Assembly: GCA_022835595.1 (NCBI GenBank)
Contig: BQUP01000005.1
Span: 124,001 to 188,000 of the forward strand
Direction: 5' to 3'
DNA from: Cystobasidium ongulense
Taxonomy: Eukaryota > Basidiomycota > Cystobasidiomycetes > Cystobasidiales > Cystobasidiaceae
DNA length: 64,000 nt
Part shown: piece after piece, positions 22,307 to 51,504 of the stretch
Position numbering within the stretch: the stretch's first letter is position 1
How the letters are laid out: every line of letters begins with the position of its first letter
The notes under the pieces: model-generated
Database searches by the model: none
Told to the model about the DNA's origin: nothing
What the model saw: only the letters and a program-made list of their open reading frames with translations
Made by a program: the position numbers and the translations under genes

Positions 22307-23908
22307 TCACGAACTCTTCTCGAACGGCTTGGGAGTGCCGGGTCGAGTAGGAGGTCTAGAAGCTTGCGAAGCCTTGACGACTCTCTGTCCCTGTTCCGTA
22401 AGTACCTCTTCTTCAGTCTGAGCATAGTCGATACGAATGGGATCCCAGAGCATAGCGTCGAATAGATAGCTAACACTCTCGCCATAATGTGATCGTCTAA
22501 TAGTTTCCGCTAAAACATGTGATATATCTAGCATTTTGATCTTATCACAATTTGCAATGTGATCTTCCTGAGGTAGTGTATTTGTGACTACTAATTGCGA
22601 AATCTTAGAATTTGTAATCTTCTCTAGTGCGTTGCTCGATAGGATGCCGTGCGTGACGAGCGCCATGACTGATTTAGCGCCTGCTTTTTCGAGATTCTCA
22701 GCAGCGAGAGCTAGTGTACCGCATGTATCTGCCATATCGTCGACGAGAATGGCAGTCTTGCCAGTGACATTGCCGACGAGAACCATTCTTGAGACTTCGT
22801 TAGCCTTTTTCCGCTCTTTGTGGAAGAGGGCGAATTCTAGATTGAGCTTGGCTGCCAATGATGATGCTCTGTTGTAATTGCCAAGTGTCAGAAAGGGAGT
22901 CATACATAATAATATAGAAGGTAAACCACGAACCTCTTGGCACCTCCGGCATCAGGAGAAACAATGACTGCATTCTCGACGTCGACAGTTTGTCTGAGGT
23001 ATTGCACCATGGTAGGTTCCGCATACAGCTGGTATTGAAAGTCTTATCAGTTTTGGGTTGTTACTATTCTCTGCTCGAAGTGAGCATGAAAAGGGAGCGT
23101 ACACTGCGGGAAAGAGAGACGCGATCAGCCATCATGCAAGCGGCATAGAAGTGTTGAACTCACTTGTCTACAGGGACATCAAAGAAGCCTTGAATCTGCG
23201 AAGCATGTAGGTCCATCGTCTGGTAGAGGTGTGTGATGGATGCAAGCCTCATAAGCAGGGCGCTCGGACATGGTCGACACTTTGAAAGACCACTCACAAT
23301 GACATGATCGACTCCACCGGATTGCAGCATATTTGCGATGAGCTTAGCGGTGATTGGAGCTCTTGACTTGTCCTTCTTGTCTTGTCGTGCGTAGGGAAAG
23401 TGAGGTAGCTGTTGAGGGTGTACAGCGTTACAAGGTGTACAACTGAGGCAAGATTGTGGGAAAACCTACGACGGCTGTAATCCTCCTGGCTGAAGCAATC
23501 TTGCAAGCATGGCACATGATCATTGTCTCCATGAGAGCAGCATTGGTGGGTGTGAACGACGAGGATGCGGTGCTGTTGTCCGTTTTTACCATGTTCAGCT
23601 CCCGGAACTGGGCGTGCAAAGGAAAGTCCGCCTCACTTCAAGATGTAGACATCTGCTTCTCGGACACTCTCTTGCAGGTCGAGGCCAATCTCTCCAGATG
23701 GCTTGCGGATGAGACCAGCATCGGACAGAGGGATTCCCAGTCTGTAAAGTGATTGCTTCGCTTCAGCTGTTGTTCTGACTTTTCTTCATGCACGCGACTG
23801 CGAACCACGGCGGGCGGACGGGACTGACCGCTTGGAAACAAGATAGGCGAGCTCTGGGTGCGCCGACCCGGTGAAGAGCTTGATGGAGTTGAAGTTGCTC
23901 GACGGCAT
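22307..23908 (-). CDS. Ribose-phosphate pyrophosphokinase (PRPP synthetase)
   Basis: Makes PRPP from ribose 5-phosphate and ATP for purine, pyrimidine, His, Trp and NAD synthesis. Eight exons: 23829-23908, 23637-23741, 23470-23572, 23298-23408, 23164-23219, 23103-23103, 22934-23028, 22307-22868; 370 residues. Motifs: [113 protein letters not shown], the PRPP-binding [10 protein letters not shown], and [18 protein letters not shown]. The Asn codon of VDN needs AA from exon 5 and T from exon 6, so exon 6 appears to be one nucleotide, flanked by TTCCCGCAG and GTACGC. The C-terminal tail (about 40 residues beyond SYLF) is longer than in yeast. Several fungal paralogues exist, so I assign no PRS number. 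Confidence 0.92.
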
Positions 23909-27575: not shown

Positions 27576-30093
27576 CTATTCTTGCGTTTCCGTAACCTGA
27601 ACCGCTTTCAGTTTCTCCACCAGATCGCCCAATTCGTTCTTAAGCTCTAGTAATCTCGCAACCTCAGATCCGACTTCTCCCTCCGCTTTGCCTGCTTTAA
27701 TATCTCGAACTCTAACAGCTTGATCCGCTACATCCTTTTCCTTTTGAATGAGTTCATCAGTTTTTGGACCAGTATAGACGGGTCCTTCGCTCGCTTTAGC
27801 AAGTTTCGCTTTTTGAGCTTTCTTCTTGGTCTTCTTGTTATCTTCCTCTTCTGCAGGGACAGAGCTCTTATCGCCAAATTGCTTCTTCCAAACATCTTCC
27901 ATTTCAGGCTTAATCCGCGTGAACAAATACTCTGCTTTGCCTATCTTGTGCCCGGGCAGAATGTCCTTGCCTGTGAATTCCGCAGGCACACTTCTAGCAG
28001 GCGCTGCAAGTTGACGGAGGATGGACGCCTCAGTATCGGGCATAAAGGGGTGCGCTAGGACGGAAATTAGGTAAATAAGGTTGATAGCGGTGTTGACTAG
28101 TCTTGCACAATCTTGTGGTCGTTCGTTGAAAATGTTGTTTCCTAGGTCCGATGCTTGCAGATACTGATTGCCGCGGGCAGAGACCCTCATGACGAGTTCA
28201 ATACCGTTGCGCAGGCGCATCTGTTCCATAGTCTCAACGTACTCTTTCAGAGTCTCATTGATATCCTTGTAGAGCGACTTCTCATTCTCGCCATCTTCAG
28301 ATTGGTTTTCTGGCAGGATGCTGTCGTACTTTGCGTTAACGAACTTGACCAAGCGGTTGACAAAGTTTCCAAGGTTATTTAGGAGCTCAGCATTGTGACT
28401 GGCGATGAAGCTTTTCCATGTGAACTGGCTGTCCCCTGTCTCTGGTCTGTTGGACACAAGGTAATATCGCCAGACATCGGGAGGAACACCTGTCTCTCTT
28501 GCATTCTCGCCGAAGACACCGACACCTCTTGATTTCGAAAACTTGGTTCCTTCGTACTGTAGGTACTCCGTTGTTGATATCGAGTCGAGCATGGTCCATT
28601 TGTCACCCGTTCCAAGCAGATAGCCCGGGAAGAAGAGAGTGTGGAAGACAACATTATCCTTGCCCATGAACTGATAAAGCTTGACGTTGTCTGGATTGCG
28701 CCACCACTTCTCCCATTCTTTCGTGTAGCACGCTGTAATACTAGGATAGCCAAAAGGCGCGTCAAACTAAGAAATGCACGTCAGCTGCAACTACAAGAAG
28801 CAGAGACAAAACCTGTCACTTACCCAAACATACATGACTTTATTTTCCCATCCTTTCAGAGGAACCGGTACACCCCATTTCAGATCTCTTGTCACCATGC
28901 GAGGCTTTAGACCTTCTTTAAGCCAACCCTGTGTCATGCCAACAGTATTTGCGCTCCATTCTCCTTTACTGCTGCTACTGTCTACCCAGGCCGAGATCTG
29001 CTCTTGTAGCTTGTCAAGCGCAAGTGCCAGATGCTTTGTCTCGCGGATGACGGGTTTATCACTGCATAGCTTACATCGAGGATGTATAAGCTCAAGGGGC
29101 GACAGTGGGTTCGTGCAGTTGTCGCATTGATCTCCTCGGGCATCATCGTAGCCACACTTTGGACATGTACCTTCCACGAAACGATCTGCCAAGAAGCTAT
29201 AAAGGAAGATATATCAGTTGACTCCAGATAAAAAGGAGAGATCGAGTTGCCTACCGCTGGTCTCTTTCGCAGTACAATTGCGGAATATTTTGTTCTATTA
29301 GGTGACCATTCTTGTAGAGTTTCAAGAATGCATCTTGGCAGACCCTGTGCAACGGATGTTTTCGTCAGTGAGCAATACTTTCGAGTGCAGAGATGGACGT
29401 ACTCTGTCTGTTCTGGTGTACTGGTCCGTCCAAAATAATCGAAAGAAAGATTGAACCATTCGTAAGATTCCTTGTGAATCTTGTGAAATTTATCGCATAC
29501 TACAGTAGGATGCGAAGTCAGCAAGAGGCACTGAGTTCTAGATAAGAGACCTGACTAACGTTCGCGAGGTGAGATCCCATCGGCTAATGCCCTGTTCTCG
29601 GTTGTAGTGCCGTACTCGTCGGTACCGCAGATATAGAGGGTCCGCCTGTTCTGTGTGCGGTTGTATCTTGCAAAGACATCCGCAGACATGGTCGAGCCGA
29701 TGAGATTGCCTAAATGGGGTGCATTGTTAACGCTGAAAAAGACGAGATAAGCAGCTGCCTCCTTGCAATTCTCGTTCCTGTCTATGTATACTGGTACTCA
29801 CTATGGCAAAGCGGAGGTGATGAGAACGTTTCTTTCTCCATCTTTCGGTAGGCTTTAGGTTTCCAGTCATAAGGGTGGTAGGTTATTGCATGTTCGGGTG
29901 TTCAGTACATTGTAATTCCAGAGGGCAAGTAGGGTCGAAGAGTGGCACATAAGTCAGCGAAAGCAGCGGTAACCAAGCTCAGGTCTGAACAGCCGTCTCC
30001 TCACATCTTGCCGTTCTCGGTTGCTAGCGAGACACGGACGCAGTCAGCGTTGATGGTTGATGGCATAGATGCCGATGCCGAGTCGTTTGCCAT
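27576..30093 (-). CDS. MES1: Methionyl-tRNA synthetase, cytosolic type
   Basis: Seven exons: 30005-30093, 29802-29852, 29560-29732, 29403-29499, 29255-29344, 28824-29196, 27576-28766; 687 residues. Charges tRNA(Met) for initiation and elongation. Motifs: [20 protein letters not shown] with the HIGH-type signature [20 protein letters not shown], two zinc knuckles ([10 protein letters not shown]...DQCDNC and CKLCSDKP), [14 protein letters not shown], and the KMSKS signature as [12 protein letters not shown]. The N-terminus lacks the GST-like domain of yeast Mes1. The C-terminus ([38 protein letters not shown]) looks like a WHEP helix-turn-helix RNA-binding domain. The start exon ends in ENGKI, and the splice gives [12 protein letters not shown], preserving the family pattern. 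Introns run 57-152 nt. Confidence 0.94.
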
Positions 30094-49810: not shown

Positions 49811-51504
49811 ATGTTTGTAGGTCTCGCTCACTGTGCCTTGCTTTTCGCCAGGTTGGATGAAATGCTCATGCTCCGTCCACGCGCTTGAACGCATCTCGAA
49901 ATACAGGAAGCAACACTCGAAAAGGCAGAGCTTCTCAAGAAGATCCTAGATGGTGCGTGAAGCTGTCTGAACACTCTAGCACGCTCCGCTGACGATGTCT
50001 GTCTTCATTCTCGTTTGCATCTTTGCTCGCCTGCCTTGATCCACCTTTCGAACACCATCACACAATGCAACAACAGCCGTCAAGGAACTCGTCACAGACG
50101 CCAATCTAGACTGCAACGATGAAGGTCTTGTAAGTACACTTCAGCGTGTGGTACCTACTCAGCCATCAACAGCTGTGCTTCTCGGCCAATACAGCTTTCC
50201 CAATTCTGACGCGTCCACCTTTTCGCCCCTCCTGCGCGCCTGCAATATTTGGTCATACTCTCGAACAATTGATACCTTTTGATACGAATTCATCAGAAAC
50301 TACAAGCAATGGACAATTCTCACGTTGCTCTCGTCTCACTATGGCTCAAGACCGACTCGTTCAGCGAATTCAGATGTGACCGTGATATGACGCTGGGTAT
50401 GAACTTGGGCTCTCTACAGAAGATCATCAAGTGCGCCAACAACGACGACAACTGCAAGCTTTCTGCAAGCGAAGACGCCGATACCCTCAATCTTCAGTTC
50501 CAGGGCAAACGTGAGTGTCTTTAATAGCTGGATGCCAACTGAGACTCTCTGTTTATGGAAGCAATGCTGACGACCGCCACTGTGTTTTGTATTGTACACA
50601 GGCGCCGCACGAATCGGCGAGTATGAAATGAAACTCATGGACATTGACAGCGAGCAGCTCGGAATTCCGGAGACAGACTATGACGCCAAGATCCGCATGC
50701 CATCTTCTGAATTCGCTAAGATTATGCGAGACTTGAAGGATCTAGGCGAGAGTGTCAGAATTGAAGCGACCAGCGAAGGAGTCAAATTCACTGCTGAAGG
50801 TGAAATTGGAAGTGGTAGCGTTACTATTAAACCTACAGGAGAATGGGAAGAACCAGAAACTAAATCAAAGAAGAGAAAAGCTACTTCATCTTCAAATAAA
50901 AAAGTCAAGAAGGAGCGTGCTGGTTCTGCTCGTGTAAAAAAGGAAGGGAATGGTGAAGAAAGCGATGAGAACATGGATGAGGATGAGGAAGATGTCAAGC
51001 CCAAAGTGAAGGACGAGCCAGCTTCCGATGATGAGGAAGAAGAGGATGAAGAGGAAGACGATGATGAGGAGGAGGGAAGTGGCAGTGAAGACGAAGAAGC
51101 TTCAAGTAAGAAAAAGAAAGGAGCGGCTGCTTCTAAAGCAACGAAAGGCAAGAAAGCCGCTACCGATGGCGAAGATTCAAGAAATGTATTCATTGACGTC
51201 TCACAAGCTGTTTCACTCAACTTTTCAATCAAATACTTGAACAACTTTGCAAAGTCTACTCCTCTATCCAATGAAGTTATCCTGCAAATGAGCAATGATG
51301 TCCCTCTACTCGTGAGTTCCCGCCTGCATAGCTGTCTTGCGAGATATTAAATTTAACATCTGCTTTCCTTTTCTAGGTCGCATACGAATGGGACGGTGGT
51401 GCCATCAAGTTCTACCTCGCACCTAAGAGTGAGTGAATTGAGGCATACTCTCCATTAAGCCGGTCTCTAACTCGTTCCTTTCCTTCGCAGTCGCCGAGGA
51501 CTAG
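49811..51504 (+). CDS. POL30: PCNA sliding clamp with a large internal charged insertion
   Basis: Seven exons: 49811-49816, 49907-49952, 50077-50129, 50297-50510, 50602-51311, 51377-51428, 51491-51504; 364 residues against about 260 in the family. Motifs: MFEATLEKAELLKKILDAVK, KLQAMDNSHVALVSLWLK, CDRDMTLGMNLGSLQKIIKC, ADTLNLQFQGK, YEMKLMDIDSEQLGIPETDY, RMPSSEFAKIMRDLKDLGES, then after the insertion SLNFSIKYLNNFAKSTPLSN, YEWDGGAIKFYLAPKIAED. The insert (about residues 194-299, nt 50862-51180) sits between VTIKPTGEWEEPET and NVFIDVSQAV, an outer loop of the second domain, and is Lys-rich then highly acidic then Lys-rich. It contains basic nuclear-signal-like patches. The first exon codes only Met-Phe. 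The clamp tethers DNA polymerases in replication and repair. Confidence 0.93.
50862..51180 (+). other. Charged low-complexity insertion inside PCNA
   Basis: About 106 codons in frame in exon 5, with no splice sites that would remove it cleanly. It runs basic (KSKKRKATSSSNKKVKKERA), mixed, acidic (EEEEDEEEDDDEEEGSGSED) and basic again (ASSKKKKGAAASKATKGKKA). GAA/GAG codons dominate the acidic part. Confidence 0.85.

Follow-up and report, generated by a model that had tools for sequence, protein, structure and literature searches.

The PRPP synthetase gene described here raises a simple question, namely how an intact enzyme can be made from a gene in which two neighboring, well-recognizable exons do not join in frame. 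The gene lies in a stretch of 64,000 nucleotides from Cystobasidium ongulense (contig BQUP01000005.1, positions 124,001 to 188,000), referred to below as the window, and all coordinates are those of the window. The explanation favored here is a predicted exon of one nucleotide (U in the RNA), which is probably constitutive and is placed between two ordinary short spliceosomal introns; the probability that this exon is real is estimated at about 0.88. That the cell splices the transcript in this way is what we infer, while the sequence, the reading frame, the splice-site scores and the rarity of the arrangement are demonstrated here and are presented first.

Structure and Identity of the PRPP Synthetase Gene

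The features of the gene that are needed to follow the argument are as follows.

22307..23908, minus strand: PRPP synthetase gene, 8 coding exons in the model, 370 amino acids
23164..23219, minus strand: exon 5, 56 nt, 3' end GTA GAC AA
23104..23163, minus strand: intron 5, 60 nt, GTGAGT...CGCAG, branch-like GGCTGAT with its A 22 nt from the 3' end
23103..23103, minus strand: predicted exon 6, consisting of one T, which ends the Asn codon AAT
23029..23102, minus strand: intron 6, 74 nt, GTACGC...ACCAG, branch-like AACTGAT with its A 19 nt from the 3' end
22934..23028, minus strand: exon 7, 95 nt, beginning CTG TAT GCG (LYAEP)
23166..23171, minus strand: rival donor GTAGAC within the V-D codons, very weak by the donor profile of the window

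The predicted protein is a member of the PRPP synthetase family, as Pribosyltran_N (1.2e-42) and Pribosyl_synth (1e-41) exceed the Pfam cut-offs and are accompanied by Pribosyltran (1.9e-15), and the match to known enzymes is full-length. Searches with a query that carries one extra V and lacks the C-terminal tail return human PRPS2 at E 1.3e-115 and human PRPS1 at E 2.8e-114. The seven introns of the model measure 87, 64, 61, 78, 60, 74 and 65 nt.

The original prediction had placed the end of exon 5 (GAC-AA) at 23164 and the start of exon 7 at 23028, and both the letters and the coordinates are as it described them. The 135-nt interval between these exons (23163-23029) contains TTTCCCGCAG-T-GTACGC, in which the T at 23103 stands between an AG and a GT, divides the interval into introns of 60 and 74 nt, and completes the Asn codon (AAT) of VDN|LYAEP. 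The predicted spliced junction is GTAGACAA-T-CTGTATGC.

Reading Frame and Conservation of the Junction

Translation of the possible products demonstrates that the intact 370-residue enzyme requires the T, apart from the rival splicings discussed in this and the following sections. Direct joining of exon 5 to exon 7 brings in a stop after 193 amino acids, which bears out the frame loss that had been predicted, while retention of intron 5 or of intron 6 leads to a stop after 152 or 164 amino acids, respectively. Such early stops are what would be expected if the locus were a decaying copy that makes no full enzyme, or if the T were skipped alternatively so that a frameshifted mRNA tunes the level of the enzyme. 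Either situation is improbable here, as the other exons have open frames and align with PRPS from end to end, and no lesion was seen in the model besides the frame problem at this junction.

The residue completed by the T had been described as highly conserved. In the best 5 of 31 PDB matches, the alignments to human PRPS1/2 run without a gap through GFFD(I/V)PVDNLYAEP, and the Asn is present in both human enzymes. Among 29 aligned prokaryotic or phage ORFs the position is occupied by Asn in 14, Tyr in 8, Asp in 4, His in 2 and Ser in 1, indicating that the residue is not universal while the length of the segment is kept; none of the 29 is missing the V-D-N residues. These 29 are part of 34 fetched ORFs, the others being L030-L033, which aligned poorly, and L034, which is not PRPS-like; alignment was used in place of a motif pattern, which matched 6 of the 34 loci. 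A literature search for a role of Asn144 in PRPS1 found no paper, and consequently no function is ascribed to this Asn. The lone base that sits between the AG of one intron and the GT of the next is needed both for the frame and for a conserved residue, as expected of a nuclear one-nucleotide exon.

The relatives recovered by sequence searches of viral and prokaryote collections were of prokaryote or phage type, with no fungal locus among them, and uninformative on introns. Prokaryote genome contigs yielded 32 loci, all bacterial, and a whole-protein search of viral contigs yielded 2 loci of prokaryote or phage type that are 38% identical; an exon-8 alignment search of the viral contigs recovered 0 relatives among 88 stretches.

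Conservation also bears on the idea that the interval is removed as a single non-canonical intron of 134 nt, either with GT-CA ends or with a donor starting in TG. Both variants remain in frame and give a product of 370 amino acids that reads VDKLYAEP, with AAG (Lys) instead of the Asn codon. The non-canonical ends and the Lys, set against the Asn of human PRPS1/2 and found in 0 of the 29 aligned prokaryotic or phage ORFs, make this idea scarcely credible.

Splice-Site Strength

The sites flanking the T were compared with those of a reference set obtained with a small gene finder self-trained on the window, which produced 29 gene models with 93 introns besides introns 5 and 6; Pfam matches bound only 24 introns of this self-trained set. 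Among the 93 introns, G occupies position +5 in 98% and C or T precedes the AG in 96%, and the branch site is CTRAY-like. Introns 5 and 6 both have a donor with G at +5, a CTGAT branch-like site (22 and 19 nt from the 3' end) and a CAG end, and their lengths, which had been called normal for this DNA, indeed fall within the range of the other introns (median 68 nt, n = 93).

The two introns differ in strength. Intron 5 stands at the 86th percentile of the 93 predicted introns, and intron 6 at the 17th, with its donor at the 12th, its acceptor at the 11th and its branch site at the 61st; the donor GTACGC is present in 1 of the 93 other introns. Relative to the 24 introns bounded by homology (inside Pfam matches in seven genes), intron 5 scores above 21 and intron 6 above 3. 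Intron 6 is weak yet inside the range of the introns in the window, and by length, splice sites and branch site both flanking introns are credible, intron 6 near the low end.

A single intron spanning the whole interval compares poorly. At 135 nt it scores above 4% of the 93 introns and would be long, as a length of at least 130 nt occurs in 3 of the 93. It had also been predicted that use of the GTAGAC donor (23171) would delete V-D-N in frame, and translation confirms this, the product being 367 amino acids long. The corresponding alternative is that the T goes unused and this donor serves either a single 143-nt intron or a second step after removal of intron 5, yielding an enzyme without V-D-N. 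The frame is preserved in both forms and the two-step form scores -1.5, but the donor score of -1.79 lies below those of all 93 other predicted introns, and the 143-nt intron falls at the 1st percentile. Moreover, nothing is deleted at this position in the human PRPS alignments (best 5 of 31) or in the 29 of 34 prokaryotic or phage ORFs that align well, so that loss of V-D-N through this donor is very unlikely.

Competing Parses of the Junction

Canonical one-step and two-step removals between the end of exon 5 and the start of exon 7 were listed for introns of 40-200 nt; for two-step parses each intron was required to score at least 0, and both orders of the same pair were counted. The list holds 144 in-frame, stop-free parses. 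The one-nucleotide exon obtains 5.1 when intron 5 is removed first and 4.6 when intron 6 is removed first, and the next different protein product, which loses five residues, obtains -1.2. The interpretation of the T as an exon is thus supported as the best-scoring in-frame canonical parse. The interval does not behave as a stwintron, as two-step parses that also remove the T keep the frame only at the cost of conserved residues (highest score -1.2).

The score of the best path of the gene finder drops by 8.0 to 9.6 when either or both introns are forbidden, and the substitute models carry an in-frame stop because the gene finder ignores codons split by introns. With introns 5 and 6 left out of the site profiles, the one-nucleotide exon was picked in 5 of 5 self-training rounds. 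Training that excluded this gene altogether still placed the intron pair in a clean best model at three of six settings of the prior (-11, -12.4 and -14). The model at -9 is degenerate, since spurious micro-exons abound in it beside the intron pair, and the models at -16 and -18 lose every intron of the PRPP synthetase gene. The T is the sole internal exon of 10 nt or less at -12.4 (1 of 68) and at -14 (1 of 58), and it is joined by one other, of 6 nt, at -11 (2 of 78).

Chance Expectation

The frequency with which such an arrangement arises by chance was estimated from 5000 dinucleotide-preserving shuffles in which the outer donor (6 nt) and the outer branch/acceptor end (24 nt) were fixed. 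The observed score of the one-base exon was reached in 0 of 5000. An AG-N-GT that leaves 42 nt or more to its left and to its right was present in 461 of the shuffles, and an AG-N-GT whose base would yield Asn in 340, indicating that the bare motif is not rare and that the rarity lies in the good sites around it. Overlapping real stretches of the window, taken from both strands and placed between the same ends, reach the score in 15 of 127,730 cases, and all 15 contain this same site. The two strands of the window carry 450 AG-N-GT sites, and by the score of the two-intron unit the T site is first among them (29.4; next 26.1); by acceptor plus donor alone it is third.

These counts weigh on the possibility that the assembly lacks one base at the junction, the interval being an ordinary single intron of about 135 nt. 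Errors of one base occur commonly in certain assemblies, and both outer sites, donor and acceptor, could serve. If the sequence were in error, however, the CAG-T-GTACGC inside the interval and the branch-like sites that go with it would be a matter of chance (none of the 5000 shuffles reached the score), and one and the same base repairs the frame, the conserved residue and the intron lengths. An assembly error is accordingly given little credence.

Two further properties of the interval are unremarkable. RNA folding of the 135 nt reveals nothing unusual (z 0.21 and -0.27), and introns 5 and 6 are not recognizable duplicates of one another, their local alignment score of 12 being reached by 304 of 500 shuffles.

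Proposed Order of Splicing

In the proposed pathway, which calls for no RNA structure, introns 5 and 6 would each be recognized by intron definition, for which their size is suitable. Simultaneous assembly on both is unlikely and they would be removed successively, because the AG of intron 5 falls within the region that is read as the donor of intron 6. Intron 5 would probably be removed first, since its sites are stronger. Its removal would place AAU before GUACGC, a slightly better donor context in which the score of the intron 6 donor rises from 3.96 to 4.46, and removal of intron 6 would then produce AAU-CUG (Asn-Leu).

The origin of the intron pair may be sought in a shift of intron position by one nucleotide. 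The two introns lie one base apart, in phase 2 (AA|T) and phase 0 (AAT|CTG), and the pair could represent the intermediate of such a shift, although this reading is regarded as doubtful. Were it true, loss of either intron would leave relatives whose intron positions differ by one base, and one-nucleotide exons would recur in intron-rich fungi as a step of intron turnover that annotation tends to miss. One study is reportedly concerned with single-nucleotide intron shift.

Relation to Known One-Nucleotide Exons

One-base exons have reportedly been described in mitochondrial genes as well as in nuclear ones. The original prediction invoked Arabidopsis APC11 as precedent, and this precedent stands, although it is no longer the only one: nuclear one-nucleotide exons have been published for APC11 (PMC4674806), for plant VPS55 (PMC8831610) and for Fusarium CYP621A (PMC12940212). 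Proof of the APC11 exon came from cDNA and base changes in the work of Guo and Liu (2015, PMC4674806), who favor intron definition and successive removal of the two introns. Like the predicted PRPP synthetase exon, it is a coding exon of one nucleotide between AG and GT that is needed by the frame. In contrast, it belongs to a plant gene and its base lies 333 nt into an interval of 422 nt (PMC4674806), whereas the PRPP synthetase exon is predicted and its interval measures 135 nt.

Another likeness is to a fungal gene. For Fusarium CYP621A, a claim is made by the authors to the first one-nucleotide exon in a fungal gene (Nelson and Syed 2026, PMC12940212). In both fungal genes one base sits inside a conserved motif, and CYP621A too was noticed through a frame problem in an interval twice the length of a usual intron (139 nt in F. 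graminearum). CYP621A encodes an ascomycete P450 of unknown function, its base is G, and the exon is found in at least 20 orthologues and is present in RNA reads (PMC12940212). The PRPP synthetase exon, unlike it, would lie in a core gene of nucleotide synthesis, has T as its base and is predicted from one sequence.

The one-nucleotide exons of plant APC11 and VPS55 are absent from annotation, and RNA-seq and RT-PCR support them; forms of VPS55 with and without the base coexist in some plants (PMC8831610). Ascomycete stwintrons share with the proposed pathway two successive splicing reactions within one short interval (PMC5639578, PMC9024468, PMC6616335). In a stwintron, a splice element of one intron is split by the other and no base is left behind, whereas in the PRPP synthetase gene one base would be kept.

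Searches of the open-licence literature, which took PRPP synthetase and micro-exons as separate subjects, found no report of a one-nucleotide exon in a PRPP synthetase gene or in any basidiomycete. The exon described here is probably a further case of a rare but known kind, in an unusually central gene.

Other Unusual Gene Models in the Window

Three other genes in the window have structures of interest. The gene of the ribosomal protein S11/uS11 family (RPS14-like; 31549-30660, minus strand) is modeled with a first coding exon that consists of the ATG only, followed by a 13-nt exon (31476-31464) and then an intron of 143 nt; these two short exons suggest that the genome may hold further micro-exons. 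The PCNA gene (50309-51504, plus strand) contains an acidic, lysine-rich insert of about 100 residues inside the PCNA C-terminal domain, and its model is without the first residues of the N-terminal domain, suggesting that an upstream exon was missed. The first intron of the methionyl-tRNA synthetase gene model (29852-30093, minus strand) is 152 nt long, about twice the usual size here.

Significance

A one-letter exon is an extreme of gene structure that has been reported for few genes and is easily overlooked by gene-finding software. If the exon is real, a core metabolic gene joins the very short list of those with nuclear one-nucleotide exons, and the 135-nt interval would provide a compact natural substrate for studying how the spliceosome copes with two introns that are separated by one base. 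The locus would also demonstrate how annotation fails in such a case, as any tool that imposes a minimum exon length is bound to break or truncate the PRPP synthetase. Whether one-nucleotide exons mark one-base intron shifts could be learned by comparing related fungi.
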